Source of the DNA: Polytrichum commune
Lineage: Eukaryota > Streptophyta > Polytrichopsida > Polytrichales > Polytrichaceae
Reading direction: 5' to 3'
DNA: 64,000 nucleotides
Assembly: GCA_950295325.1 (NCBI GenBank)
Contig: OX485803.1
Location: 76,151,554-76,215,553 of the forward strand
The notes under the pieces are model-generated. The model was not told where the DNA came from. It searched no databases and saw only the letters and a program-made list of their open reading frames with translations. Numbering within the stretch: the stretch's first letter is position 1; every line of letters starts with the position of its first letter. Made by a program: the position numbers and the translations under genes. This document shows, in pieces, positions 1,851 through 27,520 of this stretch.

Positions 1851-1874
1851 GCATTGATTTGTGATTTGTGATTT

Positions 1875-2265
1875 ATATTTGTACCATAGGTTGGTTGAAG
1901 CTTAGAAACGTTGGATCTGGATTTGGTTTGCGAAAACCACCTTTGATAAAAAACGTTAGCTAGTCATAAGGACCCGAAAACTACACTATAGGTTGTAGAA
2001 GGTTACAAATGCCAGCTCTAAGCTTATATTATGGAAACAACATCTAAAAGTTGGCCATACAGAACAAAAACGTGAGCTCGTAGGTAGTGTCCAAGACATA
2101 TTTTTTAGCCTTAAACGGAAGTTTAAGGCGATCATACGTCAAAGGAGTTTTCTAGAGATGCACTAGGTTGGGAGGTGTTTTTGCAAGGCTTGGAAATTAC
2201 TAGCAACAAAAGAATTAATGTAGCAAGGAAGGACTGCAAACACCCATTAACAATGGGCTTTCATA
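1875..2265. repeat. Left outer arm of large inverted repeat
   Basis: About 390 bp match, in reverse complement and with few differences, the stretch at about 7782-8180. Shared landmarks are GTACCATAGGTTGGTTGAAG at the outer end, CTAGCTAGTCATAAGG-like sequence in the middle and CCCATTAACAATGGGC at the inner end. Inside both arms lies an array of palindromes, so the structure from 1875 to 8180 is a foldback-type repeat. It may be two oppositely oriented copies of one element rather than a single transposable unit. Confidence 0.8.
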
Positions 2266-2284
2266 TATACGTACTATGCAGCAT

Positions 2285-2850
2285 TTGGTTGCTGCGCAGA
2301 AGTTTACGAAAATGTGGGCCGATGTTTACGAACGCCCGTTCGTAAATGTGCATCGAGGTTTACGAACGTCCGTTCGTAAATGTGGGCCGAGATTTACGAA
2401 CGCACGTTCGTAATTGTGCAGCACTTAGTTTCTGCGCAGAAGCTTACGAAAATGTGGGCCGATGTTTACGAACGCCCGTTCGTAAATGTGGGCCAAGGTT
2501 TACGGCCCGTTCGTAAATGTACGCTGATGTTTACGAACGCACGTTCGTAACTATGCAGCACTTGGTTGCTGCAAAGAAATGTACGAAAATGTGGGCCGAG
2601 GTTTACGAACGCCCGTTCGTAAATGTGCGCTGACGTTTACGAACGCACGTTCGTAACTATGCAGCACTTGGTTGCTGCAAAGAAGTGTACAAAAATGTGG
2701 GCTGAGGTTTACGAACGCCCGTTCGTAAATGTGGGCCGACGTTTACGAACGGGCGTTCGTAAATGTGGGCCGACGTTTACGAACGGGCGTTCGTAAATGT
2801 GCGCCGACGTTTACGAACGGGCGTTCGTAAAACTCCGGAATACGCGGCGG
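2285..2850. repeat. Palindrome array, left arm (about 12 copies)
   Basis: About a dozen copies of the palindrome ACGAACG-NN-CGTTCGT, mostly flanked by TTT and AAA, are separated by short spacers reading GTGGGCCGA or GTGCGCTGA and by longer spacers containing GCAGCACTTGGTTGCTGC. The array corresponds in reverse complement to the larger array at 5820-7620. At its inner end (about 2840) the sequence AACTCCGGAATACG mirrors AATACCGGAGCAT near 5808, showing where the inverted repeat stops. Confidence 0.85.
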
Positions 2851-2860
2851 TATATGCGGT

Positions 2861-4870: not shown

Positions 4871-4877
4871 CACCCCT

Positions 4878-4985
4878 ATCCCATCCCAACCCATCCCATC
4901 CCATCCCATCCCAATCCATCCCATCCCATCCCATCCCATCCCATCCCATCCCCTCCCCACACCCCATCCCAGCACATCCCAACCC
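4878..4985 (+). repeat. (CCATC)n microsatellite
   Basis: About twenty near-perfect pentanucleotide repeats of CCATC, with interruptions at the ends. It makes spurious proline/serine-rich open frames. Confidence 0.95.
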
Positions 4986-4999
4986 TTCCAACGTGGAGG

Positions 5000-5805
5000 A
5001 AGCCACGTAGCAACGATAGGGAAACCCTAGCGGCGTTGGCTACCTCCCCGCACCCCTTCTTCTCCTTTCATTGTCATTTGGAGCATAGAAAGGAGAAGCG
5101 GAACGCTGAGCACATGCGGAGCGGAGCTCTTGTCATTTCTTTACTCATATCTTTTCTTTGTTTTGTTGGTGCGCGTGTTTGAGAGTCGCAGATTTCTTTT
5201 GAGAGTTGCAAGTTTGCTAGTAGAGAGCTTGAGAGCTACAAACTTGAAAGTTGCATACACATAAGAGTTGTTGCAAGGGTTTGTATGTAACGTGCGAGGG
5301 CTTAAGAGTGTGAGGGAGGAATGACTAATGTGAGGGTGCAGTAGATTGAATTTACAATTTTGAGGTTTTCGAAGTTTTTCACTAAATGAGGAAGCACAAG
5401 TTTTGGATGTATACCAATTCAACGTGCATAGTGTAATCCCCCTGAACTCACTTCCTTCACATTTTGAAATTTTTTTCATTGTTGAATTCCATGTGTTTTT
5501 TTCCATGTATGTTGAGCTTTGGCATGTTTTGTTTGCAAGCTTCCCCATATTTTTCGATTTAGTGTTCTCTCACAACCTGAAACTCAATTATGTTTTCATT
5601 CGGTTGTTTCAATTTTTATCGTTCTCAAGTTTTATCTTCACTTGCAGTATGCAAAGGCACCAATTCAAGATTGATAGGTATCAATCACAAACCAAAAGTC
5701 GCAAGATGCAATGGACAAATTACTGATACATATCAACCACTCCATTATAGACCAATGCATATTTATATTTGTTTATATATGAATATAAAAACATATGTAC
5801 ATGCG
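5000..5805 (+). other. Leader-like region of a palindrome element
   Basis: This stretch parallels the leader of element B (about 17.0-17.7 kb) in order and sequence style: GAGAGCTTGAGAG-type runs, then GGCTTAAGAGTGTGAGGGAGG, then a T-rich stretch with CACTTCCTTCACATTTTGAAAT and CTCACAACCTGAAACT, ending in a likely splice acceptor TTCACTTGCAG near 5646. In element B the corresponding sequence is an untranslated exon followed by an intron. As in B, palindromes begin downstream. I infer a diverged 5' end of the same element family; no protein start is evident. Confidence 0.5.
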
Positions 5806-5819
5806 TAAATACCGGAGCA

Positions 5820-7640
5820 TGTTTACGAACGGGCGTTCGTAAACTTTAGCGCAACAACCAAGTGCTGCACAGTTACGAACGTGCGTTCGTAAACGTCGGC
5901 GCACGTTTACGAACGGGCGTTCGTAAATCTCGGCCCACATTTACGAACGTGCGTTCGTAAACTTCTTCGCAGCAACCAAGTGCTGCATAGTTACGAACGT
6001 GCGTTCGTAAACGTCGGTGCACATTTACGAACGGGCGTTCGTAAACCTCGGCCCACATTTACGAACGGGCGTTCGTAAATCTCCGCCACATTTACGAACG
6101 AGTGTTCGTAAACCTCGGCCCACATTTTCGTAAAATTATGCGCAGCAACTGAGTGCTGCATAGTTAGTAAATGTACGCCGACTTTTACGAACGGGCGTTC
6201 GTAAACCTCGGCCCACATTTACGAACGGGCGTTCGTAAATCTCCGCCACATTTACGAACGAGTGTTCGTAAACCTCGGCCCACATTTTCGTAAAATTCTG
6301 CGCAGCAACTGAGTGCTGCATAGTTAGTAAATGTACGCCGACTTTTACGAACGGGCGTTCGTAAACCTCGGCCCACATTTACGAACGGGCGTTCGTAAAT
6401 CTCCGCCACATTTACGAACGAGCGTTCGTAAACCTCGGCCCACATTTTCGTAAAATTCTGCGCAGCAACCGAGTGCTGCATAGTTAGTAAATGTGCGCCG
6501 ACTTTTACGAACGGGCATTCGTAAACCTCGGCCCACATTTACGAACGGGCGTTCGTAAATCTCCGCCACATTTACGAACGGGCGTTCGTAAACCTCGGCC
6601 CACATTTTCGTAAAATTCTGCGCAGCAACCGAGTGCTGCATAGTTAGTAAATGTGCGCCGACTTTTACGAACGGGCGTTCGTAAACGTCGGCCCACATTT
6701 ACAAACGGGCGTTCGTAAACCTCGGCCACATTTACGAACGAGCGTTCGTAAACCTCGGCCCATATTTTCGTAAAATTCTGCGCAGCAACCGAGTGCTGCA
6801 TAGTTAGTAAATGTGCGCCGACTTTTACGAACGGGCGTTCGTAAACCTCGGCCCACATTTACGAACGGGCGTTCATAAATCTCCGCCACATTTACGAACG
6901 GGCGTTCGTAAACCTCGGCCCACATTTTCGTAAAATTCTGCGCTGCAACCGAGTGCTGCATAGTTAGTAAATGTGCGCCGACTTTTACGAACGGGCGTTC
7001 GTAAACGTCGGCCCACATTTACGAACGGGCGTTCGTAAACCTCGGCCACATTTACGAACGAGCGTTCGTAAACCTCGGCCCATATTTTCGCAAAATTCTG
7101 CGCAGCAACCGAGTGCTGCATAGTTAGTAAATGTGCGCCGACTTTTACGAACGGGCGTTCGTAAACCTCGGCCCACATTTACGAACGGGCGTTCGTAAAT
7201 CTCCGCCACATTTACGAACGGGCGTTCGTAAATCTCCGCCACATTTACGAACGGGCGTTCGTAAACCTCGGCCCACATTTTCGTAAAATTCTGCGCAGCA
7301 ACCAAGTGCTGCATAGTTAGTAAATGTGCGCCGACTTTTACGAACGGGCGTTCGTAAACCTTGGCCCACATTTACGAACGGGCGTTCGTAAATCTCCGCC
7401 ACATTTATGAACGGGCGTTCGTAAACCTCGGCCCACATTTTCATAAAATTCTGCGCAGCAACCAAGTGCTGCATAGTTAGTAATTGTGCGCCGACTTTTA
7501 CGAACGGGCGTTCGTAAACGTCGGCCCACATTTTCGTAAACTTCTGCTCATCAACCAAGTGTTGCACTGTTACGAATGTGCGTTCGTAAACCTCGACGAG
7601 TATTTACAAATGCGCGTTTGTAAACCTTGGCCAACAACAA
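5820..7640. repeat. Expanded palindrome array in 160-bp units (about 36 palindromes)
   Basis: About three dozen copies of the palindrome ACGAACG-NN-CGTTCGT. Between about 6020 and 7540 they are organised in 160-bp tandem units (starts near 6181, 6341, 6501, 6661, 6821, 6981, 7141). Each unit holds three palindromes spaced 32 bp apart and one non-palindromic spacer with CGCAGCAACCGAGTGCTGC. One unit (near 7205) has an extra 33-bp palindrome step. The long open frames across the array on the minus strand (repeats of YERPFV and LRTPVRK) arise because the palindrome lacks stops in four of six frames and the unit length does not disrupt them; they are not genes. Confidence 0.93.
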
Positions 7641-7781
7641 AGGTTGCATATTTACGAACATGCAATTGTGATCTTCGGCGTAATAACCAAGGGCTGCATG
7701 TTTACGAATGCATACTCATAAACCTTGGCTACATACAATGAAAATGTGCACCACCCCCCTGCTACAATAATCAATAGGGAA

Positions 7782-8180
7782 TAGGAGTACGTATATATGA
7801 AAGCCCATTGTTAATGGGTGTTTGCAGTCCTTCCTTGCTACATTAACTCTTTTGTTGCTAGTCATTTCCAAGCCTTGCAAAAACACCTCCCAACCTAGTG
7901 CATCTCTAGAAAAAACCTTTGACGTATGATCGCCTTAAACTTATGTTTAAGGCTAAAAAATATGTCTTGGACACTACCTACGAGCTCACGTTTTTGGTCT
8001 GAATGGCCAACTTTTAGATGTTGTTTCCATAATATAAGCTTAGAGCTGGCATCTCTAATCTTCTACAACCTATAGTGGAGTTTTCGGGTCCTTATGACTA
8101 GCTAACGTTTTTGGTCAAAGGTGGTTTTCGCAAACCGAATTGAGATCCAACGTTTCTAAGCTTCAACCAACCTATGGTAC
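7782..8180. repeat. Right outer arm of large inverted repeat
   Basis: Reverse complement of 1875-2265 with scattered differences and small indels; begins near GCCCATTGTTAATGGGTG and ends near CCAACCTATGGTAC. Together the arms enclose about 5.5 kb. Confidence 0.8.
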
Positions 8181-8189
8181 ATTTTTCAA

Positions 8190-9225
8190 GTCATTCTAAC
8201 TACTTGCTCTAGACGTCTCCTATGAGTGTCACATTCGCACATACCCACCCTTTCTACTTTCTAATGCATTCTTTGTTCCTACATGACAAGTTGTGCAATG
8301 CACATTTTCAATAACGACTTCAACACCTTTGTCTTGCCAACACTAAGGACTATGTTATCTTAGAAGGAGAGCAGTAATAGGAGAATGCCAACAATGAATC
8401 TACTCTTCAAATCCCTCTTTCAACACTTTGTTGCTTGTTTTCCAAGACTGTTGTCCGTCTGGACTGCCTCACATTTCTAGGTCTAAACTTACAAGCATAC
8501 ACACCTTCTCTAAGAGTCTAAGCTATCTTCACATATGTGTACTAAGAGAGCCAAAAGGTTCTAGGACAATCTTTATATACCTCAAAACAACTACCTACTA
8601 GGTGGGTCAACTTGGTAGGTTCCCACCCTGTCAAAACACTGCAACTACCTGTCCTCACGCGTTTTTGCCCTTTGTCCAGTACATGACCAACTGGCACACT
8701 GAGGTCATAAAAAATGATCAACTAGTCAAAGAAATGCAATGCTATTTAATAACTTTGGACCAACAAGTCATTATCTGACCAACTAAATTATTAACACCAA
8801 ATAATTACTACTACTGAATAAATTGCTCAGTAGTAAAACAGTAAAAACCAATTAGTGGACGTTTTAACAACTAATTGCATTAGGGACAAATTTGACGTCA
8901 ACTAGTAAACTAGCATTCTTTTGCCCTTTCGACAATTCGCGACCAACTAGTCAGTTTTTGATGGGTTGGTTTACTATGAACATTTTATGTTCTTAAAACA
9001 CGGTGCTAACTTCTACCTTAACTTCTATCTTATCTATGTTTGTGCAAATAAACGAAACCACTATACATATTTGCAAACACACATTCGTAAAAATAAGTAA
9101 TGTTGATTTATAGATTACACATTACACTGATTTACGAACGGTTGTTCGTAAATATGCTACCAAAATCTACTTTAACAATTGAGTGTGGATATACTTTATA
9201 TTGTGCATAAAGTATGGTCTTGGAG
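8190..9225. other. No recognised gene; one isolated palindrome
   Basis: About 1 kb without a recognisable ORF. A single palindrome variant is present at about 9131-9153 (ACGAACGGTTGTTCGT). The stretch joins the inverted-repeat arm to the phosphatase-gene fragment. Confidence 0.5.
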
Positions 9226-9521
9226 AACACGGTGCCCATTTTCAAGTTCCTCATCTGTGATCTCCCAAGCCCTTGCCTCGTTCTCGCCAAGAAGTATGCG
9301 ATGAGCTAATTGACGAGAATGGTGTGCCAATGCCCAAGTTTGGTGGTCGAGGCGGAGGGCAACATTTCCTCAAGGTCTTGAGGTCCAGGTTGTGGCTAGA
9401 AGTCCCCCTATTGGAGGGAGTCCCCCACGGGAGCTGGCACATATTGAAGAACGACACATATTCGAGGCCAGTCAACAAACTTGGCTATAGTTGCAGGCCG
9501 GAGATTTTCAAAGCTATATAG
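9221..9521 (+). pseudogene. Truncated HAD/FCP1-like phosphatase fragment
   Basis: Nucleotides 9230-9430 align closely with 23678-23890 of element B, covering the middle of its FCP1-like domain; the shared motif KFGGRGGGQ is intact. Immediately after the shared PHG motif the sequence jumps to what in element B lies at about 25146 (KNDTYS ... RPEIF), so about 1.25 kb including the DDSP catalytic motif is missing. The upstream DLNGV motif is also absent. The frame stays open for about 80 codons but cannot make a phosphatase. Best read as a piece of an internally deleted, non-autonomous copy. Confidence 0.8.
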
Positions 9522-9935
9522 GCCATTGGAGCATTACAGAGAGAAGCCACCGTAAAAGATAAGGACATGGCCGCGAGAAAAAATATAGTGGGACGTACTA
9601 GTGGGACTATAAACGCCTACAGACTCCCTAAATGTGTGTAGGGGTAGAGCATAGTGCTTGGTTATCCATTCTATTTGAAGGTCTTCAAGACATTAATGGT
9701 ATTTCCATTATGTTTGTATTTCAAACCCGTTGAATAGATTCAATTTCCAATCATTCTCCACATCTTCCTTTCCATTAGCAACAATTTGTCATTTTATACA
9801 CATATGTTTTCATGTATGGTTCATTTTTTTGTTCACTTTGATGCATTTATGTTGATGATTATATCCAATGTTATACGTATGGTATTTTAATGTTGTTAAC
9901 ATTGGCTCAAATTTGAAAACCACGTCCTTGAATAG

Positions 9936-9976
9936 TCTCAAAATCATCAAAAAGTCTCCGATTACCGAATATAGTG
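9936..9976 (+). repeat. Shared element right terminus, copy 1
   Basis: About 40 bp ending AAAGTCTCCG...CGAATATAGTG also occur at 25618-25661 (end of B) and, more diverged, at 16890-16929 (end of A). Homology stops just after TAGTG followed by TTT or TTC. The CACTA-like tip (TAGTG is the reverse complement of CACTA) suggests, but does not prove, a terminal inverted repeat of a CACTA-type element; no matching CACTA left end was found by eye. Confidence 0.65.
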
Positions 9977-9979
9977 TTT

Positions 9980-12300: not shown

Positions 12301-13168
12301 GTACCTTATGGAACCATAGTTCGGCATTGCACCTGAACTGACATCATGACCACTTGCTATGTGAGTCTGCCAACGAGACTGTATTGTCCTGAAAATTTAT
12401 GGACGCGCGTCCATAAACCTTAAACCTCCGGGCGCATTAATCCTTTCTTGCCTTGATCGTTTACGGGTTTAGTGGTAATAATGACGTCCAGAGAGATTTA
12501 CGGACGCGCTTCCGTAAACCTGCAAACCTCTTGTGCCATAATTTCGACCATGTGCCATATAGAATATTACATTGAGACTGTACGGTCAATGGAGGTATAA
12601 GATCCTTAAATCCTAAACTTACATCACCCTATGTGTCATAGTATAATATTTTGACATTGATAAAACACAGTAGGAAGCGCGTATGTTAACCTCTTCAAAT
12701 GCATAATCGTCAGGCCTGGGTATACGTGTCCGTGGCACATGGACATCTTGGTTCCCTAAACCTCTGTGTGTCTTGGACACCACTGACTTTTGACATTGGG
12801 ATGTTTGCGGACGCGCGTCCGTATACCTATTTTGTATAGTTTGCGAAACCATTTGCGCATGTTACTGACCTCTTTGAGCACGAAGAGTTTTACGGGTGCG
12901 CGTCCATAAACATGTCATGTTTTTGTTGTCTGGACCTGTCCGCCGACTATGAACAAATAAAGGAATTTGTATACGCGTGTGCTTGCACTAATAATGTTGT
13001 TATATGGAAGTATACGAACGCGCGTTCGTATATCAATGTGTCTTTGTTTCCAGGCCATGAAATCCATTATTGTTCACATTGTGTTTCATTGACAATAAGC
13101 ATTATGACTATCCATGACATTTATTGAATGGGATATTTTGACATACTCTTCATTTGGATCACTTGTAG
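12301..13168 (+). other. Putative leader intron of element A with scattered palindromes
   Basis: Further palindromes of the ACGGACG class, some mutated, lie near 12396, 12496, 12803 and 12890, and one of the ACGAACG class (TATACGAACGCGCGTTCGTA) near 13011-13033. The stretch ends with a plausible acceptor, CACTTGTAG, at 13168, six bases before the likely start codon. No ORF of note. Confidence 0.55.
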
Positions 13169-13173
13169 TGGCC

Positions 13174-16100
13174 ATGGATTCCAACGTCGGTGATAGTGCA
13201 TTTGAGTTCTCTTCGGAATCGTCAAGCTATGGTAGCGAATTTGAAGGTGTCATGGAACGGGAAACTACAATTGATGTCGCAAATGCAGAGGATGATTTCA
13301 TACCACCATGTGAGGGTTATTCGCGGGAACAGTGGATTGATCTTGATGTTGTCCTAGTCAATGGATGTGGCGTCCCCGTGGCCGATGGTGTTTGTCGGAA
13401 CTCGAATCCTACGGATTGTATTGATGCAAATCCCCTTGGGGAGGAAGATGTTGGGGTGTGCATTTTGAACTCCTTGAATCCTTTAGAAGTACCTCCTGGT
13501 TGGAGATTCTCTCTTCGTCGATGGCCGTTGCGAAGTGTTCTTCACGATGGTGTGAACTTGTGGAATCATGCCCGTCGTTTTGAGGAAATACAAAAGGATT
13601 TGTTCGCCACAATGCGTCCTAGACAAGGTCGGCGTAAATATGATTCCGTTCGCGTGCCCCGTGAACCCACGCAACGTCGTCGAGATCTAACATTGGGAGA
13701 CACATCTATTAGGTCCGTAGCAACAAAGGATTGTTGTGCAAAGAGGTGTTGCCAACTATTTCCCCGTGACAAAATCAAATCTTTGAGACAAGAGATGTGG
13801 CTTGCGGACTTTCGTATGCGATCTGCAAAGAAACTTGAAGTCCATCGCAACATGCACTTTGATGCCGAAGGTCGTAAGGTTGTGACCTTGGAAAATATAG
13901 AGGTATGTTGCACGGCATGGTACATTATACATGCTATTTCAAAGGCAGATTTTTATAGGTTCCGGAACTACTCGCTGCAAGGACGGCGTTCTCGGTTCCA
14001 TGGCAACTCTGGTACAAAGAAGCCCAGGGAGGTAACACTCCAAGCGGCTGCAACACTATCAACCATCATTATGCCATTAGCGGATGCGATGCCACACAAG
14101 ACACGGACTCTGCCGTCGGGGGAAAATGTTGTCTAGATGGTTTTGCCTACAGGGACAAAATGGAAGAACATACTTATGGATGTTAATGAGGTTGGCGAAA
14201 AGGCTGGATGTGGGCCGATTTCGTTGTCAAAATTGAGTGTGATCAAGAATCAACAATTTGCAGAGTACATTACGAAGAGGCCTGGGGATAAGTTTGCTAG
14301 GTGTTCTGCTTGTGAGAAATATAAGGGCCTTCGAGATGCACATCCAATAGGGACTGAGTCGCACAATAGACATCAACGAAAATACATTGAGCATGTCAAC
14401 AACTAGGAGGCACACCGTCAAGACTACTACAAGAATCGCGCATTATCGATAATGAGGCCGAATGAGGTTTTGACAATCATTAATGACAAAATGGACCATG
14501 CGAAGACTGCGTGCCCTTGTTATGCACGGAAAATAAAGGCTATAGATGGATATTTCAAGCTCCCAATATCTGTCACAGGTTCGTTGGTTTTCACATTTTT
14601 TTTGCGCACCCACATACTCATTATGAAGAGTTACGGATGTACGTCCGTAAATGTTTGTTCATTTTCTTGGCCTGCTTGCGAAAAAATTGAATTTCCTTAT
14701 CATATATGATATTAGAATGTACTTCTCATTTGTATGTCTTAATTCAGGTATGATTGCACATGGCCATGTGGACGTCAAGTATGCACATTATGGCTTGGAT
14801 TTCTATCCAGGCGACGCCAATCATACCGTAGGGTCTTTTGTAAAACTTCTACGAGATCTTGAGAGTCCGCCAACATCATCCTCCCGCGCTCTTTTTGTTG
14901 GATGTGGAACAACACCGATTTATGAGGCTGTGCTAGAGGGGAAAGAAGTTTGTCTATCGTCACTGCAAGAACCGCCTGAACAAACCGTTCTTGCTAAACC
15001 TTTGCCTCCAACTCTACATGTGCAACTGGACAATTGTGCCAAAGACAACAAATGTCGATACGTGTTTTGTTTTTGGTCATTGCTCGTAGCCAAGGGCATT
15101 TTCAAAGAAGTGTTTGTGTCTTTTTTGATGGTTGGCCACACGCATGATGACATTGACGCTTCATTTGGACGTTGGAGTATGAAGTTGCACGAGGAGGATT
15201 TTCCGACGATTCCTCTTCTCATGAAATCATACATGGATTTGGATAATGTGCCAGTCATCCCGCATTTGATTGAAGAAGTGCCCGATTTCAAAGCGTTTAT
15301 CAAACCATTCATTCTTAAGGGAGGTGACCGCTTAGTGGGCCATACCAAGGCTCAACAATTCCGATTCTATATGCGTGATGATGGTCTGCCGGCCATGCAA
15401 TTCAAAGTTTTGTGCACTTCCCCGGATTGGGGTCCAGAAGAAGGGATACTCGTCTGGCGCCAAAACAAAGAGGGCAAATGTATGCTACCTGATGGGGAGC
15501 CGAAGCCTTGCAAACCCAACCCCATGAGGAATGGACCAGAAATCATCAAAGGTATATCCGGATTCATCCAATATTGGAAAGAATTGTGCGAGGAAGACAT
15601 CACAAGGCGTGTTCGGGATACCCACGAACCATTGATTACGTACTGGGATCGCATTCGCTCAGCATTGCTAGCACCCGATGTCGAAACACATTCATGTTTG
15701 ACACAAGGTTTTTGGCCACAAAGCCGAGTGACAATCGTGGAATCTGAGGCCATGTTCTTCGACAATGGGGACATCCGTGAAGAGTTCGTAGTGGACGACC
15801 ATTATGTTGGCCCAGCTCGTAATCGTCCGGCTCCATCATTTCGTGTGGCTGTTGATTGCTACGAAGGGTATATGATCCTCGTACGTCCTGGAGATGAGGA
15901 GCACCCTAAACCGATTTGGTTGGTAAAAGCATTGTCATCACCAAATTTTGTTCCAACTAGCCCAAATTTTCATCAAATTGAGGTGGAATATTGCCGTCCC
16001 AGCACCAAAGATCAAAATGTGCTCCGCACATATTTAGGGTGGGACACCAAAAAAGGTTTCAAATGGACAATGGACTCAGCATACGAACCAATATGGATAA

Positions 16101-16282
16101 ACACAGATACCATACTTTGTGCTTGGAAACCACGCAAAGGTTCCAAATCAGAGACAATGACCATTCCCCAAAAACATATAGATTTTGCCAAAGACAATTT
16201 GGCACGTATTGCTGCTGCAGAAAACGATGTCGAGAATGGAAATGAAGCTGAAGATGAAGCTGAAGATGAAGAGGGAGAATGA
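13174..16282 (+). pseudogene. Broken DUF7869-type protein of element A (putative transposase)
   Basis: Start chosen at 13174 (good context GCCATGG, just after an acceptor). Exon 1 runs to 14578 (donor CACAG/GTTCGT), exon 2 from 14748 (acceptor AATTCAG) to 16282; phase 1 matches on both sides, giving about 979 codons. Two in-frame TAG stops interrupt exon 1, at codons about 321 (14134) and 411 (14404), each where the frame otherwise continues sensibly. Near residue 560 is QLDNC followed by K/RYVF, and near 598 GHTHDDID; this pair is the hallmark of the DUF7869 domain found in multicopy proteins of many eukaryotes. The C-terminus is acidic (runs of E and D). I infer a nuclease-like or transposase role from the Asp-rich motifs and multicopy nature; no function is established here. 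The intron carries an ACGGACG-type palindrome (about 14632-14653). Confidence 0.7.
14579..14747 (+). other. Intron of the element A gene with one palindrome
   Basis: GT..AG intron of 169 bp between the exons, phase 1. It contains GTTACGGATGTACGTCCGTA, a copy of the A-class palindrome with two mismatches. Confidence 0.7.
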
Positions 16283-16889: not shown

Positions 16890-16929
16890 TTTTGAGACTT
16901 TCCAAAGTCTCCAATTAACAAATATAGTG
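16890..16929 (+). repeat. Shared element right terminus, copy 2 (end of A)
   Basis: GAGACTTTCCAAAGTCTCC followed by AATTAACAAATATAGTG. Diverged from the other two termini but aligns over about 30-40 bp and stops at the same point. Here the sequence forms a perfect 8-bp-stem hairpin (GAGACTTT/AAAGTCTC) not present in the other copies. Confidence 0.6.
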
Positions 16930-16984
16930 TTCCTTGCCAATTTTAGAGCCTCATTGTGAATGTTGTTTTGTTGTGTTGTCAGAA

Positions 16985-17345
16985 CCTTGAGAATAGGAAA
17001 GCTTGAGAGTAGGAAAGGTTGAGAGGTTGAGAGTTATAGAAAGGTTGAGAGGTTGAGAGTTATAGAAAGCTTGAGAGGTTTAGAGTTTTAGAAAGCTTGA
17101 GAGGTTGAGAGTTATAGAAAGCTTGAGAGGTTTAGAGTTTTAGAAAGCTTGAGAGGTTGAGAGTTATAGAAAGCTTGAGAGGTAGAGAGTTTTAGAAAGC
17201 TTGAGAGGTTTAGAGTTTTAGAAAGCTTGAGAGCTTGAGTTTTAGAAAGCTTGAGTTTTAGAAAGCTTGAGAGCTTGAGTTTGAGGTTGAGAGGTTGAGA
17301 GTTTCAGAAAGGTTGAGAGCTTGAGAGCTTGAGAGCTTCAGAAAG
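16985..17345 (+). repeat. Purine-rich tandem repeat in the element B leader
   Basis: About a dozen units of 25-32 bp built on AAGCTTGAGAGGTTGAGAG and TTTAGAGTTTTAG. A related, more decayed tract is present near 5180-5290 in the leader-like region of the left element. Confidence 0.9.
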
Positions 17346-18410
17346 CTTGAGTTTTGTGAAGCTTGTGAGTTGTGTACATCAGGGTTTGTGTAGGATTTGC
17401 ATATAAGTTGTGAAGGCTTGAGAGTGTGACAAAGTGAAGGCAGGAGGATTTGTGTGCAACAATTCAATGTGAGTACAAGTTTCCTTTACAAATCACTCCT
17501 TCACAATCTGAAATTGTTGTTTGATGAATTCCTTGTGATTTGTTTTCTGCATTATGAGGTATGTCATGTTTTGTATGAAATAACACTTTCCTCTTCATTC
17601 TGAACTATCAATCATTGACTCGCAATTTTGTTCTGATTCCATTTTTCACTTGTGTTTCATCAATCTGATCACGAGTTGCAGGATCATGAACAATGCCAGA
17701 TTGCAACATTCATACCAACATTCATACGTATATGTACATATACGTATACGTATATGTACGGATATATATATACATAAATAAATATACCATTTCCTAATCC
17801 CAGATGACCACATTTACGAACGTTCGTTCGTAAATGTGGCGTGAATACATGCCTTACCCCACAAACATATACGAATGTGCGTTCGTAAATACGCACCTCA
17901 CCCTCCATTTTTACGAACGCACGTTCGTATATTCGTCTATACCCTGTACATCAGAAAATCCTCAAATCCAATTACACATACAAAAATACGAACGAACGTT
18001 CGTAATCACAAACTATAACAATATACCAAACCCTTCATGGTAATTGTCTGCATTTCCAAGTAGCATTATTTACGAACGCACGTTCGTAAATAAGAACTAA
18101 AATATTAATTCACCTATTTAGAAGATGCTCATGGAAATTCGAACAACCCTCGTGGAAATTAGATAACCCTGGACAACTCGTGGACTTGTTTAGAAACAAT
18201 ACGAACGCACGTTCGTAAACTTGTGTCAAATACACCTTAGCAACCACATTCTTTACGAACGATCGTTCGTAAATGAAATCAGCGAAGACATCATTACAAC
18301 TTCTCACGGGTATCCATAGCCAGAGTTCAATGATTAGTGTATATGATTTGCTTTGTCAATTACGAACACTCGTTCGTAAACACAATACTAAATGTTTATG
18401 TGCTCTGCAG
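17346..18410 (+). other. Leader introns of element B with eight palindromes
   Basis: A likely untranslated exon ends at the donor CAATTCAAT/GTGAGTAC (17468) and resumes after GAGTTGCAG near 17682. From there to the acceptor CTCTGCAG (18410) the DNA contains eight copies of ACGAACG-NN-CGTTCGT, near 17812, 17867, 17909, 17985, 18069, 18198, 18251 and 18360. The centre dinucleotide differs from copy to copy. Spacings are irregular, unlike the phased arrays at 6-7.5 kb. Confidence 0.7.
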
Positions 18411-21400
18411 ATGGCCAGACCGAGCAGAAGCGCCATTGAGATGTTCGCAGTGCAGATAGATCAACTACCAGAGTCAGTGTCCGACCCCAACGGAAACGAT
18501 AATTATGTCCCCAAGGAGGACTTCATAGGGGAATGGACGGCACTGCCAGAGAAGACATCAGACGGTCTTTTCTGTCTTCGCTTCACATACGAGCTGGAAA
18601 CGACGCCGGACCAGCCAGAGCAATGGGTGCAGATGAAGACTTGGGAAGTAGAATCAATTGAGGCACAAGGAGATTATGTGATTCTAGACATGAAAAACAA
18701 GAAGGATCACATTAACCTATTGTTAGAGTACAGGAGACATAGTTTCTCCTACACATACGCGGAAAATAACGTAGTGGCTGATGCCAAACACTTCCTCAAG
18801 GACCTCTTCACGAAGTACGCCCTGAGCTCGTAGTGGACAGCAAGGAAGTTGGCCGCGCTCTCCTTGAATATCTCCAAGTACAATAGCGCGGTCGCGGAAG
18901 CCAACAAGAAGAAGAAGAGCCCACGGAAACCATCCGCATCCGGGGCAGGAGGATCGAGAAGTGCACCCAAGCCGGTGCCTTCCGCGAGCAGGGTGACGGA
19001 GGGTCCCAGCCGTCATTCCACGCCATCGAAGAGGTCCCGGGACGAAATGGAGAGGTCTGGGGTAACAGAGGGCGCTGAGGTGAGCTCTCCTCCCGTGATG
19101 CCAACCCCTTTAAAGAAGGGTGAGAATCCAGATGCGGTGAAGGCAACGAAGATCCTACGAGATTTCAATAATTACTCGAAGGATTGCTGGCCCATGGGGC
19201 GCCACTTCACGTTCAACGTGGACTGCTTCAAGTGCGAAAAGTCACCCAACAAGTGGGTGGTAAGGTCTCGCGAGAGCGGTGGGGTGAAGTGGCAGATAAA
19301 CAACCTCATGAATAACGTCAAGTGGGATAGACAGACAGTCTGCGTCATGTCCAAGGGGCTGACATCCCGACCGACAGAGGTGGATTGGCCGCGAATCCAG
19401 AATGGAGAATTCTGGATTATAGATGGTCAGCACAGCTTGGAGGCGTCGCAACAGATCCTCAAGGACGACAACTTCCAGCACGAGCTAAAGGCTGACCTGC
19501 GGTACTGGAAGGCGTTCTTGGTCTGGTCGGACGATTGGGACAAGCTGCGCAAGATTTCAACCTTCCTGAACTCGGGGAACAAAATCAAGGCGTTCGAGGC
19601 TTCGTGGGCGGCTAACATAGTGGCTGCCAGAGACGTCTGGGTGGCACACGGATGCCCACCAAAGGAAAGGGAGAACGCCAAGAACCAGTCTCCCCAATGG
19701 AAGGTGAGTTTACGAACGAACGTTCGTAAAGTGTTAGATTCATGAAAACTTCAATTACATACTCAATTTACGAACGTGCGTTCGTATTATGTGCAACACT
19801 GACATCTTGTTTTGTGCAGGCATTTTGCGACGCGATGGTAGACAAGTTCTCTTCCATCGATATGAAGTCCACCACCACCAAGTCAGTGCTTGAGCTGAAG
19901 GGTGAGCTCAGACTGATCTGCTGCAACAGGGACACCTGGGACTTGTGGACACAGTTTTTTGATGCACACAGCTCGGGCGATTTGGTCAATCCCGACACCG
20001 AGGAGAAGTACAGCACGGAGAAAACCGGTGAGGCGTCCCCACTACTGAGGGAGTTCTTTAGACACCTCCAGGGATTGACGGAGTCAGAGCTGAAGAGGTG
20101 TGCGATTCATGTTCTTGGGAACACCGTGGGAAGAAACCTTCCCTATCCCAAGATCTTTTTGAAGAGGCCAAAGCACAAGCCCGGCACGTACTCTATCAAG
20201 GAGTGGTGTGACCACCGGAAGCTGAAGACTGCTGCCATGAGAGAATTGAGCGTACTCGCACCAGAGTACAAAATCTTTGAAGTCGACGGCGACATCAACT
20301 GGCCGCAATGGCAATTGTTAAAGGTCGACTACAACATCAACGGAGCCTCCATGCGCAGTCTGGTCAAGGAGCACGCCTCGGTTTTGAAGTTGAAGGGGAA
20401 CAAAAGGACTAAGAAAACCGACACGGATCCCCACGAGGTAATGTTGTACATACAATTTTTGGAGAGGAAGAGGAACGCCACATTCGAAGGGGTGGCAAGG
20501 TTTTGCGTGATGACCTCCGGCGTGGAGAGGGTCACATTTTCCAAGTGGGACGGCACCATAAGCAGGGCCGAGGTGAGGGAGGATCGACGGGGTTGCCCTT
20601 TTGCCCTGATCGATTTCAGGGGGATCCCGGGTGCGTCAAGGCAGGGGGGGAAGGACATTCCCTTCTACAACCCCTTCATGGCCAAGTTCATGGAGTTCAA
20701 ATCGCCGGCCATGAGGGAGCCACACGTTTGGCTGTGGATAGTCGAACAGGAGAAGCTGTCGGTCGTCACAGAGCTGTACGAGCAGAATATCAAATTCGAG
20801 TACAGCATCTTCCACAGCACGTACGTGCCAGCGAAGACGAAGGGGATCGTGGCCATCAACGAGGCCAGGGGCAACAAGCAAGTGGGAGCGGTCAGCCTGA
20901 TTTTCTTGACGTACAATGAGCTTAGGGATGGGCGACCGCCTATCAAGGCGAACAACACGTTCAAGAAAATCTACAGCATCCCGCATCCCCCTCCCAAGGA
21001 TCTGCTGCAAGAGACCCTCTACACCATCTTCCCCGCCATGGAACTCAGGATGGAGTTCTACGTCTCTATATTGCAGAGTCTGGTTATAAGTGGAGAGACG
21101 GTATACAACGTATGTGGAGGCTCCAAATTCATGTATGCGGCCATGGTAAGTTGTCCAGACTCCATTTACGAACGCTCGTTCGTAAAGTTAACCAACTTCT
21201 CAACGCATTGTTTCAAAGTCGCTGCACGTGACGCATTGATGTTTACGAACGCTCGTTCGTAAACATAACCCCCTTCGTAATGTAATGCTTGAAACTCGTT
21301 GCACGCCACGCTTTGATGTTTACGAACGTGCGTTCGTATTTTCTGACCTTATTGCTCTCTTCTCACAGATGATGGGTCTCGTAGTCAACACCTTCGTTGA

Positions 21401-24163
21401 CGCTATCGACGAAGAAGACTTCAAGATCCACCGTGCGAAGGCGTCGACGATGGACCTCAAGGACATGTCTGTCCCAAGGATGGACTTCAGTATGCCCGCC
21501 GACGAGGGCATACCACTCCACGATTCAGAGGACGACGAGCCCGCCCCCTCCGCCAACGTGGACGCCATTCTGCAGTCCTTCGACGTACCCCCGCTTCGGA
21601 TCTTGCCGCCAACGACAGATCTTCCCGACCCTCAAGGGACTCCGGGTGGCTATACAGGATCATCCGCGGGGACAACCCTGGACCTCCTCCCCGCGCGAAC
21701 GTCTCTTGCGGAGCCTTTCGGAACGCCAGGCGGATGCTCGACGTCACAGTCTCCAAGGCCCGCCGTGGTTCCGAAGATGGAAACCCTGGACATCCTCGGC
21801 CAACGCTCGCGTCCATCTTTGGACCTCTTCCGCAACACGAGGAGGAGGATGAAGAAGACTCCCTACGTGGAGTTGCCGCCGGGAGCAATCATCGAGGTCT
21901 CCGACGAGGACGAGGGGGACATGGACATCATGGCCGAGCTTGGGGTGGACTACGACAAGAACAAGCGGGTGAAGGAGGAGGCGCTTACCGTCTCTGAGCT
22001 CAACGCCAAGCTGGAGGCGAAGATGAAGGAGGAGATGGCTGCAGCCCAGGAGGAGAGCGCCAAGCATCTGGCCAGGCTGCAAGAGCAGCTGAGGGAATCA
22101 GCGGCCAAAACTGACGCCATCTTCGAGATGCTCAGAAACATGCAGAGCTTCTCTGCGCCGGTCCAGCAACCTTACCCCTTCCCCCCTGGAGGATACCCCT
22201 CACAGCCCCCACCTCCAGTCATGTACCAAGGAGGGCCTTCCCACCAAACAACGCCACACCCAACGCCGGCGGGAAGTCCATTGCCCCCGGAGGTGACGGC
22301 GACCGCCTCAACCTCCCACGATGCAATCACGGCGGCGCTAAGGGAGGATGAAGATTTACGAACGCGCGTTCGTGAATCTTCAGGTCCGGCAGTCCTCACC
22401 CCTCCCCCTTCAAGGGTAGGACTGCCCACAGACACGGACACGACCTCTTTCACCGTCGTCCCAAGGGTTGTAGATAGGAGGGGCGATGACACTGCGCAAC
22501 ACACTGACATGGTCATTGTGGAGGAAACGCAGGGGAGCCCCAATGACTCGGCAGGTCCGCGTGGGATGGTCGTGGAGAGCCCTGAACAGGAACGACATCC
22601 ATCCGCGCACATGGAGGATGTCCGCATGGAGAGACTCGACCTGGGCGGGGACGACGACGTGGAGCTCATCCAACAGACCCAGTCGTCTCAGGCGGAGCGT
22701 CCGGCGGAGGTCATGGATCCAGAGGCTGCTGCCCCAATGGATATTACGAACGCGCGTTCGTTAACCAAAGAGGTAAATCATCTCTGAGAATGCCAAATGT
22801 TTTACGAACGCGCGTTCGTAACATCACTAACCCCCGCGTTGTGTTCTTGGCGCTTCAACTCCATCGACATCACGTTGCCCGCGCGCGCCTTTTTCTACGT
22901 GATCCCTTGGGCCGATCAATTTTGTAGGACACTGAATTTTTTCCTTAGGAAATTTTGATAGATTATCACGCGAGACAATTGTACATATTCACCGAATTAA
23001 TATATGAGCAGACGATCTCTGCTCGCATCACCACAACTTATTGCATATTCTCGCGTCTTGTGTTGTCTGTGCTCTTGCGCGTCTTTGCATTCCTTGCATA
23101 CACACCTCACTCACGAACGCTCGTTCGTAAAACTGTGCGACCCCCTCTCGACTTCCTTCGCGAACGAGCGTTCGTATATGTATGCATCCGCGCTCACGAA
23201 CGAGCGTTCGTAAATGATGCGCACCGCCCCCGCAGCCTTCATTCACGAACGCTCGTTCGCAATTGTGCCCTTGTGCATATTTCCTTGAACCCTCCTTACT
23301 TCCTCCTCTTTTCCCATAATGCATCGTCTTTATTTTGAACGCAAAAATTTCATTATTGGATCATAGAATTAAACTAGTCGCGTTGTTCATCACAGGACCC
23401 CCCGGAGATAGGTCGCAACCCCTCGACCAGTGGACCTCGAACCCGGAACAAACCTTTCATAGTTTTTGACCTCAACGGGGTCTTGTGTCACACCCAACAC
23501 ATCCCCAGGGTTCCCACGCGTCCCTTCCGTCACCCCGACGAAAGGGACTATGACAGCGAGCTCGACACCCTCATAAACCGCAAGGCTGTCCGCGCCCGTC
23601 CCGGCCTACGCGACTTCCTTCGCGAGGTGGTCGAGTTCGCCCACGTCGTTGTGTGGAGCTCCATGGTCATGGAGAACACGGAGCCCATCGTCGACTTCTT
23701 GTTCCGTGATCTCCCACGCCCTTGCCTCGTCCTCGGCCAAGAGGAATGCGACGAGCTGCTCGACGAGAAGGGCCAACCGGTGCCCAAGTTTGGCGGTCGA
23801 GGCGGAGGACAACAGTTCCTCAAGGTCCTCCGCTCAAGACTCTGGCAAGGCGTCCCCCGTCTGCAGGGGACGCCCCACGGGTGGTGGCCGACTCCTGAGA
23901 ACACCCTCCTCATCGACGACAGTCCCACCAAGAGCGTGTTGAACCCCCCGGGCAACGTCATCTTCCCGGACACTTGGACCGGCGATAGGCAAGACACCTT
24001 TTTGGTCGATAGGCTAGCCCCCTACCTTAGAAGGCTCGTGCTCCACGCCGGTAGCATCCCATTTTTTGTTAGGTCCAACCCCTTCGGCAATGCGGCGCTA
24101 AGCCCCCGCGATAATGTATATAAGAGCATCATGAGGCTCGCCAAACTCAATAAATTGATTTGA
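18411..24163 (+). CDS. ParB-like / methyltransferase-like / HAD-phosphatase fusion protein of element B
   Basis: Four exons (18411-19703, 19820-21145, 21369-22772, 23396-24163) all join in phase 0 with GT..AG borders, giving about 1,596 residues. The start ATG is the first triplet of its exon. Exon 1 has a basic Ser/Pro-rich stretch (residues about 150-240) and IIDGQHSLEAS near 338, the active loop pattern of ParB/sulfiredoxin-like domains. The end of exon 2 and start of exon 3 (about 780-890) hold SLIFLTYNEL, where a DPPY-type motif would sit, then GETVYNVCGGSKFMYAAM, resembling the SAM-binding loop of N4/N6 DNA methyltransferases; both look degenerate. Residues about 1077-1130 form a coiled coil, then a proline-rich linker. 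Exon 4 is an FCP1/SCP-like HAD domain: FDLNGV (about 1364), WSS (about 1428), DDSP (about 1515). An in-frame TAG sits at codon 141. I infer a transposon-encoded DNA-acting protein; function unproven. Confidence 0.65.
19704..19819 (+). other. Intron 1 of the fusion gene, two palindromes
   Basis: GT..AG, phase 0. Palindromes at 19709-19730 (perfect, centre AA) and about 19767-19787. The first begins five bases after the donor. Confidence 0.8.
21146..21368 (+). other. Intron 2 of the fusion gene, three palindromes
   Basis: GT..AG, phase 0, splitting the putative SAM-binding loop. Palindromes at about 21164-21186, 21241-21264 (perfect 24 bp) and 21319-21340. Confidence 0.8.
22773..23395 (+). other. 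Intron 3 of the fusion gene, five palindromes
   Basis: GT..AG, phase 0, 623 bp. Palindromes near 22800-22820, 23111-23131, 23158-23178, 23193-23215 and 23242-23262; the last four have the first T of the core replaced (CACGAACG or CGCGAACG), a sub-variant confined to this intron. Confidence 0.75.
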
Positions 24164-25261
24164 AATGCCTCCATGTCTTTGCTTGTTATCATGTGGTTCA
24201 CATATCTAATGCTTGCCCCGTTTTTGGATGTCTTTTGTTGTTGTGATTGTTGTTGTTCTTGTTCTTGCCCATAGTCTGCCCCCATATGCGACGCCCCTGT
24301 GGTCGATGGCTCTTCCCGTCCCCTCTCGCTCCCCGCATCCCCTTCCCGCGACGTCACGGACTTCCAAATGCCATCCCTTTACCACTTCTCGGCGGTCGAC
24401 GCGGCCTCGGCCGTGGATTACTCCCGCGACGTCGGCATCGACGACGGCGTCGTCAACAGCCCGCCCCCAGCACTTGTCCCCCGCGCGTACGCCCCGTCGC
24501 CCTCCCCCCTCTCCAAGGAGAAACGGACGCTCGTTCGTTTGGGACACCTCTCGCCCTCGAGGGACGACGCCGTCGCTCGTCGCGGGCCGAGCCGCCGTCT
24601 CCGCATGGAAGGCCCCCGTTGCCACACCTCCCCCGCCGACTCCGTTCCTCCCCCCGCAACGTCCTCCGCGATCGTGGGCCCTCCACGCCTCGACTCCCCC
24701 CCCGCCATCCAACATTGCAATAGTTCCATCGGCTCCGGATGCTCCCGTCGACGCCCCCCTCGTTCCCACCGTTCCCCGCATGGACGTCCCCAAATCCAAG
24801 GTGCCCTCCTCAACCCTAAACCCCTTTCCCGCTTTTGCTTTCCTTGTCTTCCGTTTGTGTGCCGTTCTCTTTACGAGCGCCCATCCCAAACCGCCCTCAT
24901 TATTTTCCCCACTCCATTCCTATTCTTATCTTCCTATGACGTTGTTTCGCAGGTGGCTACCCGCTCGCTTGGTGCCCGGCCCTCCTCCACGTCCTCCTTG
25001 GATAGGCACGCCCTCAAGGCCGCATCTTCCGAGTCCGATCGTTGTCTGGCCCTCCGGAGAAGCGCAAGACGTTCCCTTTCGCAAACGCCCTCGTATTCTA
25101 CTTATAATACCACCTCGTACAATTCGGGAGCGCGTCCTGAAACATGCAAGAACGACACATATTCCTATCCAGGCAACACACAAGGATTCAGTCGTGGGCC
25201 TGAGATTTTTAGAGCCATGGAGGCCGCCAAAAAAAAGGACTTAGCCGCAAAAAAAAAATAG
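24164..25261 (+). CDS. Possible alternative 3' exons of element B, partly frame-shifted
   Basis: A GC-rich stretch with coding character follows the phosphatase stop. An alternative donor at 24115 (GATAAT/GTATAT) and an acceptor at 24274 (CTTGCCCATAG) join in phase 0 and replace the last 15 codons by a Ser/Pro/Asp-rich extension. The protein-like frame appears to shift by about 24545-24620 (a damaged palindrome, ACGGACGCTCGTTCGT, sits at about 24525). It then reaches a donor at 24800 and an acceptor at 24952, and continues in phase 0 to a stop at 25261 with KNDTYS, RGPEIFRAM and a lysine-rich tail. That tail is the part retained in the deleted copy at 9.4 kb. Alternatively this is a separate small gene or a decayed 3' region. 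No domain recognised. Confidence 0.35.
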
Positions 25262-25661
25262 TGGGTCGGACTAGTGTGACTAGAAGCGTACTAGTGGGAC
25301 GGACTCCCTAAATGGGCTTAGGTGTAGAACATATTTAAGTGCTTACTTTCTATGCTATTCCAAGTTACTCAAGACATTGATGGTATTTCCATTATAATTG
25401 TATTTCTATCCCAATTAATTCATTCAACTTCCATTCATTCTTCGCATCTTCCCTTCCATTCATAATGAGTTGTCATTTCATACGCAACTATTTTCATGTG
25501 TGCCTCACATTTTTGTTCACTTCCATGCCTTTATGTATAATAATAGTAGCATACCATTATACATATGGGATTTTTAGTCGTCATTACTGGTCCATTTTTG
25601 AAATGTGCATCCTTATATAGTCTCATAATCAACAAAAAGTCTCCAAATACCGAATATAGTG
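25262..25661 (+). other. 3' untranslated region and terminus of element B
   Basis: Aligns throughout with 9580-9976 of the deleted copy, including GACTCCCTAAATG, AAGACATTGATGGTATTTCC and the terminal CGAATATAGTG. Homology ends at 25661, defining the element boundary. Confidence 0.75.
25618..25661 (+). repeat. Shared element right terminus, copy 3 (end of B)
   Basis: AGTCTCATAATCAACAAAAA followed by GTCTCC...CGAATATAGTG, nearly identical to 9936-9976. Confidence 0.7.
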
Positions 25662-27520
25662 TTTCTAATGGTTTGTTCTTATTTTTTCTCGACCTGGCTG
25701 ATGTTTTTTCCCCCTTCTTCCATTCTCATGACACACGGTTTTTTTTATTTTTTTTAATTTTAATTTAAAAAAGAGAATGGCCAATCCATCTTGTTCGGAT
25801 GTTGAAGGTGTATTTTGAGGTACCCGGCCCAATTTCTTATGACCGTATTGATGCCAATGTTCATTAAGTTTAAGTATGTGGTAAATGTGAGATAAAATAA
25901 GCACCCTTTAGGTTTCCAAGCCAAAGGCTTAGTTTGTGCTTAATTTTAGTTAACAAATAATATTTTCTAAAATTTGGAAGTCTTGGGAATGAAAAATCTC
26001 TACTTAGTCCTCCTAAACATCTAATTAATTCAATACAAGTTTATTTGTTGTAAAATAAACAACTTAGATTCTTTTAATATAACTATCTTTTGCTAAATTC
26101 AATACAAAGTGGCCTAAAAGCTAATATGACATTTAAAGATTTCTAATTATTTGAAAAAAATGATAAGGAGATAAGGCTTTTGTAAGATGTTTCACAGAAA
26201 TGCTCATAACTTTTAGTCAAATTTTTAGATTAGAACAAAAGTAATTGAACTAAGAAAATAACTTTAATATCTATATAAAAATATATATTAAAAAATAGAC
26301 ATTATAGCAAGTTGGGGTGAAGTTACAAAATCATCAATGTCAAAACAAAATCTGTCTCACAAAAATGCCTATAATTTCTAGAATAAGTTGTTAATTTTTA
26401 TTAGACTAATTTTATTGAAAAGAAAACTTTAAGAGCTATTCATGCATATAAAATATATTAGAATTGAACCTTAGATCAAGATGTTGTAAGGTTTTGGAGT
26501 CTGCTGTCCATTTCAACCCAAAATCATTAACTAATGTTACATTCTATAAAAACTAATTATGTTTTATCAATAAAAAATGAATTAAAATGCAACTTTTACA
26601 TTAAAAAAAGAAATAAATGAACTTTAACAAAATACTTTTATTAAGTGATAAAAACACCTTGCGCCCATTTTAGGGTACTTTCTAAAGTCAAGCCGGGGCC
26701 GAAAGTTGCAGCTATGATCAAGAAATGTGAAAAGAAAACTCAAGGGTGGTCAATGCAAAAGAGATGAATTTCAAAGCTATATCAAATTCATTGAAGCGAG
26801 CGAGAAAAAAAAATTCTGCAAAAAATCCAAGCAATGGGAGGTAAGAACAAAGGTAACATGGAAGAAATTAGAAGCTAAAAACATTGACAACTAACACATC
26901 GATTCTTAATCTACACTCTTAACTCTCATTCAAAAGTCTCATAAACTTGAAAAACTTTTAGGGATTGTGTCTTTGGGCAAGGGTGTAATTTATGTGACTA
27001 AATTTGAGAAGTAATCGATGTGACCAAATTTTAGCTACTTTAGTTCGTGATTGTTCTTCTTTAAACAAGAAAATCACCAAGACATTCATGAGGACTTCAT
27101 TTCTACCTAACGATTGGACCAAAATGAAAATGCAAGGGTAAAATTCGTGGCTCCAATTTTGACATATCATCATGCTAATTTTTCCTCTAACATGTAAGTA
27201 TCTTCATATTCATTTGAGTTATCTTATTCATTTGTAATGCTTACTTCTTAACTTTCTATTTTTTATTGTTCTTTAATATTTATATTTCAATTTGTTTTTT
27301 TAAAATTTTGTATCTAATGTTTAAATTTTTTTGCTAATAAGACTATGTTAGGGAAAAACAAATGGATTTCTCAATACATAAATTTTCACAAGAAAATTTA
27401 CGAAATGAAGAATGTCATTACGATGGACATAATAGAGGTAGTGTGTGAGAATTACAAATCAAATTGGCTTAATGATAATTGTAAAGAAACTTTTTGATAT
27501 GTAGTTGTTCAACAATATTT
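25662..27520. other. AT-rich stretch without recognised gene
   Basis: No ORF with recognisable motifs on either strand. The palindrome family is absent from here to the end of the window. Confidence 0.5.

Follow-up and report, generated by a model that had tools for sequence, protein, structure and literature searches.

A four-exon gene in a large DNA transposon of the moss Polytrichum commune lies among mostly conserved, largely element-confined palindromes that suggest a self-recognition system

In a stretch of 64,000 nucleotides of the Polytrichum commune genome (the window) a gene of four exons is surrounded and interrupted by short palindromes, and the question raised by this locus is what carries the gene and what its protein does at these sites. 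The initial annotation, made from the sequence alone, described a transposon-borne fusion of ParB-like, methyltransferase-like and HAD-phosphatase domains that could bind, modify or nick the palindromes. Our analysis suggests that the palindromes, which in the places sampled are almost confined to the element, and the selected second gene beside them make up a self-recognition system; the palindromes were the strongest surprise of the analysis.

As first annotated, the four exons joined in phase 0 into one long frame, with GT..AG at the borders and 1,596 codons ahead of the stop, and IIDGQHSLEAS, a GGSKF segment and FDLNGV...DDSP were all found in its translation. The same exons and splice sites recurred in other copies. 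A 2-kb gene probe matched at least 43 places in the 408-Mb source genome (40 of 258 candidates were scored); at least 33 of these, the window included, were full length at 95-100% identity, at least one was full length at 82% and at least nine were partial. A search for the LEAFY domain gave four matches, which, with seven chromosome-size contigs (C1-C7), fit a moss-like land plant. Copies free of the TAG at codon 141, the search for which had been proposed with the annotation, were found. Exon 1 kept its length and lacked this TAG in all nine same-family copies compared; all four exons were open in two of them (L011 and L017), and a stop or frameshift was present somewhere in six. In L009 exon 2 has a stop and the gene is interrupted after about 22001, and its scoring covers exons 1 and 2 only. 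The four exons were also open in copy C, which belongs to a diverged family and has its exon-3 donor somewhat further downstream.

Between the window and copy C, dN/dS was 0.062, 0.127, 0.244 and 0.085 for exons 1 to 4, with dS of 1.08, 0.69, 0.72 and 0.18, respectively. Ratios of 0.06-0.24 therefore indicate purifying selection at the protein level on all four exons. That these belong to one fused gene, as had been claimed, agrees with this selection and with the conserved splice sites; a single mRNA appears well supported by the latter and by the common phase. NIF-type HAD domains, such as that of exon 4, are common in eukaryotes, and the gene might consist of host gene pieces captured by chance and without a role for the element. 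This explanation is largely refuted by the comparison of two diverged families, in which dN/dS was well under 1 for each exon, and with the many copies in addition we consider it to have next to no probability.

Single exons were scored at still more places: the exon-1 part at 135 or more (among 996 candidates; 33 with stops), exon 2 at 95 or more (among 1,170; 18 with stops) and exon 4 at 149 or more (among 1,269; six with stops). At least 23 exon-4 matches had an identical score (576.4 bits, 96%), which suggests a very recent burst of one subfamily. At C1:63035836-63068915 two copies in opposite orientation have their exon-4 ends about 2 kb apart, perhaps through a palindromic duplication. 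Divergence between the families was mosaic, with dS of 0.7-1.1 in exons 1-3 against 0.18 in exon 4 for the window and copy C, and 0.18 in the DUF7869 gene (see below) for copies A and C; behind exon 4 the window and copy C were 97.5% identical. It looks as if the middle module had been swapped between families. The GC-rich segment 24213-25261, with two overlapping open frames behind exon 4, was considered as an extra exon or gene and rejected, as single-base indels between the window and copy C shift the frames; it had no match in a Pfam search.

Comparison of full copies revealed a DNA transposon of 16-17 kb with terminal inverted repeats (TIRs; AACACTA...TAGTGTT), in which the gene is the right-hand one. 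Copies A, B and C measured 16,946, 16,187 and 16,063 bp, began with AACACTATATTCG and ended with CGAATATAGTGTT, and the left and right repeats were identical at 25 of 28 positions. A 26-mer of the left TIR had 250 exact copies in the genome and its reversed control none. The 4-bp target site duplication (TSD) was identical in 11 of the 15 copies with both ends located, including the left neighbour of the focal copy in the window, and absent in C, C1_5.76, C2_1.86 and L013; L009 and L017, in each of which an end could not be located, are left out of this count. The TIRs, the TSDs and the near-identical full-length places (33 of the 43) bear out the claim that the gene is transposon-borne.

In the left half of full copies A and C a DUF7869 gene was found, transcribed divergently from the four-exon gene, and no further long sense frame of note was present in these left halves. 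The DUF7869 region was aligned in seven of the eight other same-family copies and partly in the eighth. The relative of this gene in the window matched the Pfam family with E=2.3e-40, and besides NIF it was the only family over cut-off found in the element. It was scored at no fewer than 150 places (among 1,491 candidates) and is under selection (dN/dS 0.055-0.117). We infer that the DUF7869 gene probably encodes the transposase; no mention of DUF7869 was found in the open-licence literature searched.

En/Spm elements have a second gene and repeated motifs, and in these features as well as in CACTA...TAGTG within the termini the element resembles the CACTA group. However, in the part of the source available, EnSpm elements are given 5'-CAC..GTG ends and 3-bp TSDs (PMC12730594), whereas the present element has AACACTA ends, 4-bp TSDs, a DUF7869 gene and palindromes that are not subterminal. 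The EnSpm/CACTA superfamily was excluded on the length of the TSD (4 bp against 3 bp) and on the AACACTA...TAGTGTT termini.

The window holds only part of the focal copy. Other copies run on upstream of the point at which it ends (16932), and its left half was searched for within the window and not found. The junction with an inverted half-element falls exactly at a terminal repeat, and CCTT, the first four internal bases at the junction, could be one side of a nested insertion. The left end of the shortened neighbour lies about 155 bp before the window, and its TSD is perfect. Features of the locus are collected in the table. A 26-bp minisatellite (16987-17400), whose aligned length varies among copies, lies in the 5' region of the focal copy, and on the reverse strand at 30810-31370 a segment of 561 bp is 90% identical to the part of copy A between its two genes.

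Table. Positions in the window of the focal gene, its palindromes and the neighbouring elements.
Feature	Position	Strand	Remarks
Neighbouring deleted derivative of same kind	1..9978	+	TSD TAGT; palindrome arrays; HAD fragment 9211-9452
DUF7869 gene of related inverted half-element	13114..16282	+	74-82% DNA identity to copies A and C
Left-type terminal repeat of inverted DUF7869 half-element	16904..16931	-	Abuts focal element at 16931/16932
Focal element copy, right-hand part	16932..25663	+	98.97% identity with copy A over 17091-25667; lacks left half
Eight palindromes ACGAACGNNCGTTCGT (up to 1 mismatch)	17816..18377	.	Upstream of four-exon gene
Exon 1	18411..19703	+	431 codons; TAG at 18831-18833 private to window copy
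DGQHS motif (residues 338-342)	19422..19436	+	Sub-threshold TIGR03187 and GmrSD_N matches around motif
Two palindromes	19712..19785	.	Intron 1
Exon 2	19820..21145	+	442 codons; strongly conserved; family not recognisable; at its end the GGSKF segment, first annotated as SAM-loop-like
Three palindromes	21168..21337	.	Intron 2; one absent from copy C
Exon 3	21369..22772	+	468 codons; acidic/proline-rich and charged stretch; dN/dS highest among four exons
Palindrome	22358..22373	.	Within coding exon 3; identical in copy C
Palindrome	22746..22761	.	Within coding exon 3; identical in copy C
Five palindromes	22804..23260	.	Intron 3; two degraded in copy C
Exon 4	23396..24163	+	FCP/SCP-type HAD domain (Pfam NIF, exon residues 22-215); DLNGV and DDSP motifs
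Palindrome (1 mismatch)	24523..24538	.	Downstream of four-exon gene
Right terminal inverted repeat AAAGTCTCCAAATACCGAATATAGTGTT	25636..25663	-	

Each of the three domains of the initial annotation was compared with sequence libraries. The HAD domain was recovered: exon 4 matched Pfam NIF over cut-off (E=2e-16), TIGR02251 under its cut-off (3.7e-10) and SCP1-like PDB chains with E of about 0.001. In an alignment with two SCP chains, however, DLNGV stands opposite their DLD and Asn replaces the second catalytic Asp, as it does in copies A and C, and the DxDx(T/V) catalytic pair of active FCP/SCP phosphatases was not found in exon 4. For this reason docking by the HAD tail seems more likely than dephosphorylation.

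The ParB likeness is only suggestive, and comes from the agreement of two sub-threshold matches on one motif. In the IIDGQHSLEAS region NCBIfam DGQHR (TIGR03187; E=0.29 and 0.12) and Pfam GmrSD_N (E=0.049) both scored under cut-off, the unrelated family Vac_ImportDeg scored alike (E=0.13 and 0.2), and Pfam ParB_N did not match the protein. DGQHR and GmrSD_N are members of what we take to be ParB-like superfamilies; the Arg that presumably is expected after DGQH in the family is Ser in this protein. Single-sequence AlphaFold models of exon 2 and the C-terminal part of exon 1 had mean pLDDT values of 34.8 and 37.2, too low for a reading of the ParB/DGQHR fold.

The methyltransferase-like domain was not borne out. 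No match was obtained in Pfam, PHROGs, NCBIfam, PADLOC or PDB sequences, no methyltransferase model or catalytic motif was found in exon 2 or across the exon 2/exon 3 junction, and the [DNS]PP[YFWH] motif was absent from the window copy and copies A and C. Searches for relatives were likewise negative. None was confirmed in viral contigs scanned with the exon-1 part and exon 2, or in prokaryotic genomes scanned with alignment A1; tblastn against phages gave nothing for the exon-1 part and three chance-level matches (E=7) for exon 2. PADLOC gave nothing, and when PDB sequences were searched with A1, exon 2 and the exon-1 part, the only matches were weak and fell on unrelated chains. Should the domains be those first proposed, the active-site signature of each of the three has changed, and this favours a role in binding or docking.

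Like the element studied here, Sola elements produce TSDs of 4 bp. In the 21.5-kb Ectocarpus element Sola1-1_Ec32, as described in the available part of its source, a gene for a protein of 1,104 aa with ParB-like and N4/N6-methyltransferase domains lies opposite the transposase gene, and the authors, citing similar proteins of red and green algal transposons, suggest that accessory proteins of this sort may form a class (PMC12477816). Going by that text, transposon-borne ParB and methyltransferase accessory proteins are already known. The two elements share the form of a giant DNA transposon, an accessory gene opposite a (putative) transposase gene and the 4-bp TSD, and the ParB-like domain reported in Sola1-1_Ec32 has a counterpart in the DGQH motif. 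Compared by description only, ours differs in the length of the protein (1,590-1,596 aa), the lack of a detectable methyltransferase, the added HAD tail and the conserved palindromes. The initial statement that no described element unites all three domains thus holds in part: a ParB and methyltransferase gene exists in Ectocarpus, and in the accessible text of PMC12477816 we found no report of a HAD tail, an absent methyltransferase or conserved palindromes. Nothing relevant was found in the open-licence literature searched, either for ParB with DNA transposon and moss or for NLI interacting factor with transposase and transposable element.

The Ectocarpus gene would also give some ground for the idea that the protein is an enzymatically active ParB-methyltransferase-phosphatase, by which the palindromes are modified or nicked and host targets dephosphorylated. 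However, the lack of a methyltransferase match in the libraries searched and of [DNS]PP[YFWH], the DGQHS motif without Arg and the Asn in place of the second HAD Asp make this very improbable. From the proposal that the protein binds, modifies or nicks the palindromes, only binding seems plausible on the sequence data; modifying and nicking were not supported.

That palindromes fill the gene was confirmed by counting. With up to two mismatches, the window held 80 occurrences of the 16-bp palindrome core, where 0.06 would be expected. TTTACGAACGNNCGTTCGTAAA had 2,909 exact sites genome-wide and its reversed control 0; among the matches listed, 84 of 86 distinct sites lay in five clusters adjoining TIR or exon-1 matches, and two were isolated. 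When up to one mismatch was allowed, ACGAACGNNCGTTCGT was confined to the elements in copies A (30/30), B (30/30) and C (29/29) and was not found in their flanks (17,155, 17,914 and 3,438 bp; about 38.5 kb). Each element copy has about 24-30 palindromic sites. Similar arrays were seen in the shortened derivative at 1423-2828 and 5825-7587, the latter with tandem units of about 160 bp, and an array of similar layout stands behind another left TIR at C1:640864-646099.

Most palindromes are conserved as DNA, judging from the alignment of the two families. In the diverged part (17816-22804), 15 of the 16 window palindromes aligned in copy C and one was deleted there; the arms differed at 11 of 210 positions and the flanks at 229 of 561. 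Over the whole gene 17 of the 21 window sites had a palindrome at the same position in C, with differences at 4 of 238 arm and 219 of 640 flank positions, but this set was chosen as palindromic on both sides and includes three right-hand sites of low divergence, and the 16 sites of the diverged part give the fairer count. Two of the five right-hand sites (23113-24538, low divergence), at 23160 and 23196, were degraded in C to about the same degree as their flanks (arms 3/28, flanks 12/80 for these two). Altogether one window palindrome was deleted and three were degraded in C.

We also looked at the substitution spectra of the sampled copies. CpG transitions amounted to 1.01% within palindromes (17 of 1,679 cells), 1.01% in exons and 1.37% in noncoding DNA. 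CpG and CHG sites had 0.9-1.4% transitions, as compared to 0.33-0.36% at other C/G sites, as expected of methylated copies. In these spectra there was no sign that palindrome CpGs are locally protected from methylation, although an anti-silencing role would predict hypomethylation there.

Palindromes occur upstream of each of the two genes, within exon 3 and the three introns, and downstream, and not at the element ends: in copies A, B and C, 3.7-3.9 kb separate the left end from the first palindrome and about 1.1 kb the last one from the right end. Because of these positions we rejected the idea that they are ordinary subterminal CACTA repeats. They also bear on whether the protein is a transposition cofactor, with TnpA of En/Spm as the model, which binds the palindromes to join the element ends or aid excision and has no role in silencing. 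The two-gene layout, the CACTA-containing termini, the conservation of the palindromes as DNA and the shortened neighbour, which retains palindrome arrays and has a perfect TSD, would all fit such a cofactor. Sites that are far from subterminal and are placed in promoter regions and introns speak against it, and we regard it as unlikely.

The palindromes could instead be read by the DUF7869 protein or a host factor, the accessory protein acting otherwise, for example on RNA polymerase II by way of its HAD tail. Palindromes also occur just upstream of the DUF7869 gene, and one (13014) lies beside the DUF7869 half-element of the window. Most sites, however, are in or around the accessory gene, its introns and coding exon 3 included (21 of 30 in copy A, rather than near DUF7869), and we give this explanation a rather low probability.

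A known system with a comparable layout is that of the Arabidopsis VANDAL elements. In the parts of the sources available, VANC21 binds YAGTATTAY motifs, which are crowded into the introns of VANC/VANB and the region upstream of VANA; DNA methylation is lost through VANC, and VANC targets evolve by tandem repetition (PMC5735166; PMC10398659). As far as these texts go, both systems have a second protein encoded by the element, short motifs packed into introns and the stretch upstream of the transposase gene, tandem repetition of the motif regions (here the 5825-7587 array) and a motif highly enriched in elements. In the same texts DUF1985/DUF287 is given for VANC, together with a non-palindromic motif of 9 bp and with no HAD domain mentioned, whereas a HAD tail and palindromes are found here. 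VANC binding and demethylation were shown experimentally, while the moss element is known from sequence alone. It is this layout, a selected second gene with dense conserved palindromes in the promoter region and introns, that leads us to think that the protein may bind the palindromes and control the expression or silencing of its own element.

The reading that we prefer is as follows. The gene would be the accessory (second) gene of a 16-17 kb DNA transposon of the cut-and-paste type, with the transposase presumably provided by the divergent DUF7869 gene. The accessory protein most likely recognises the palindromes TTTACGAACGNNCGTTCGTAAA of its own element, the positions of which were observed directly, and may sit on them as a dimeric DNA-bound regulator that, by analogy with VANC, keeps the element expressed or counters silencing. 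Exons 1 and 2 probably encode, as the core of the protein, a DNA-binding module of the ParB/DGQHR-like kind that has lost the conserved Arg of the family, as hinted at by the weak matches, and its HAD tail may dock on RNA polymerase II or chromatin. The element would then carry a self-recognition system of one protein and about 24-30 cis sites per copy. This reading is supported by the TIR and TSD data, the divergent DUF7869 gene, the low dN/dS, the largely element-confined and mostly conserved palindromes and the likeness to the VANC21 layout. It is weakened by the sub-threshold ParB link, the lack of CpG protection, the degraded or deleted sites and the two isolated sites among the 86. As a whole, with recognition, regulation or de-silencing, a DUF7869 transposase, a ParB/DGQHR-like core and a docking tail, we give it about an even chance.

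In ParB/parS partition systems many palindromic sites lie near the gene of the protein. The accessory gene resembles these in its DGQH-type motif and in the many palindromes close by, and differs in the lack of a Pfam ParB_N match, the absent Arg and its place in a eukaryotic transposon; no partner ATPase was present among the matches found. More speculatively, and we are doubtful of it, a ParB-derived protein without enzymatic residues may spread from the 24-30 or so sites per copy (about 2,900 genome-wide), its pseudo-phosphatase FCP/SCP tail recruiting or releasing RNA polymerase II and in this way marking copies as self and keeping them expressed.

The preferred reading, that of an accessory protein which recognises the palindromes of its own element, offers a concrete, testable pair of protein and site through which self-recognition of a high-copy plant transposon may work. 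If true, transposon-borne ParB-like accessory proteins would extend from algae to a land plant, and the seeming loss of modification activity and the addition of a polymerase-directed domain would point to binding over DNA modification as the selected function. A confirmed pair of palindrome and protein would be a second, independently built case of the VANC type of sequence-specific element control.

Some other repeats were seen in the window. A large inverted repeat at 48824-50032, with arms 84% alike, is related to a copy at 35550-36067 and has no bearing on the finding, and short runs of TTTAGGG-like telomere-type repeats occur at 4020-4080 and 10640-10680.
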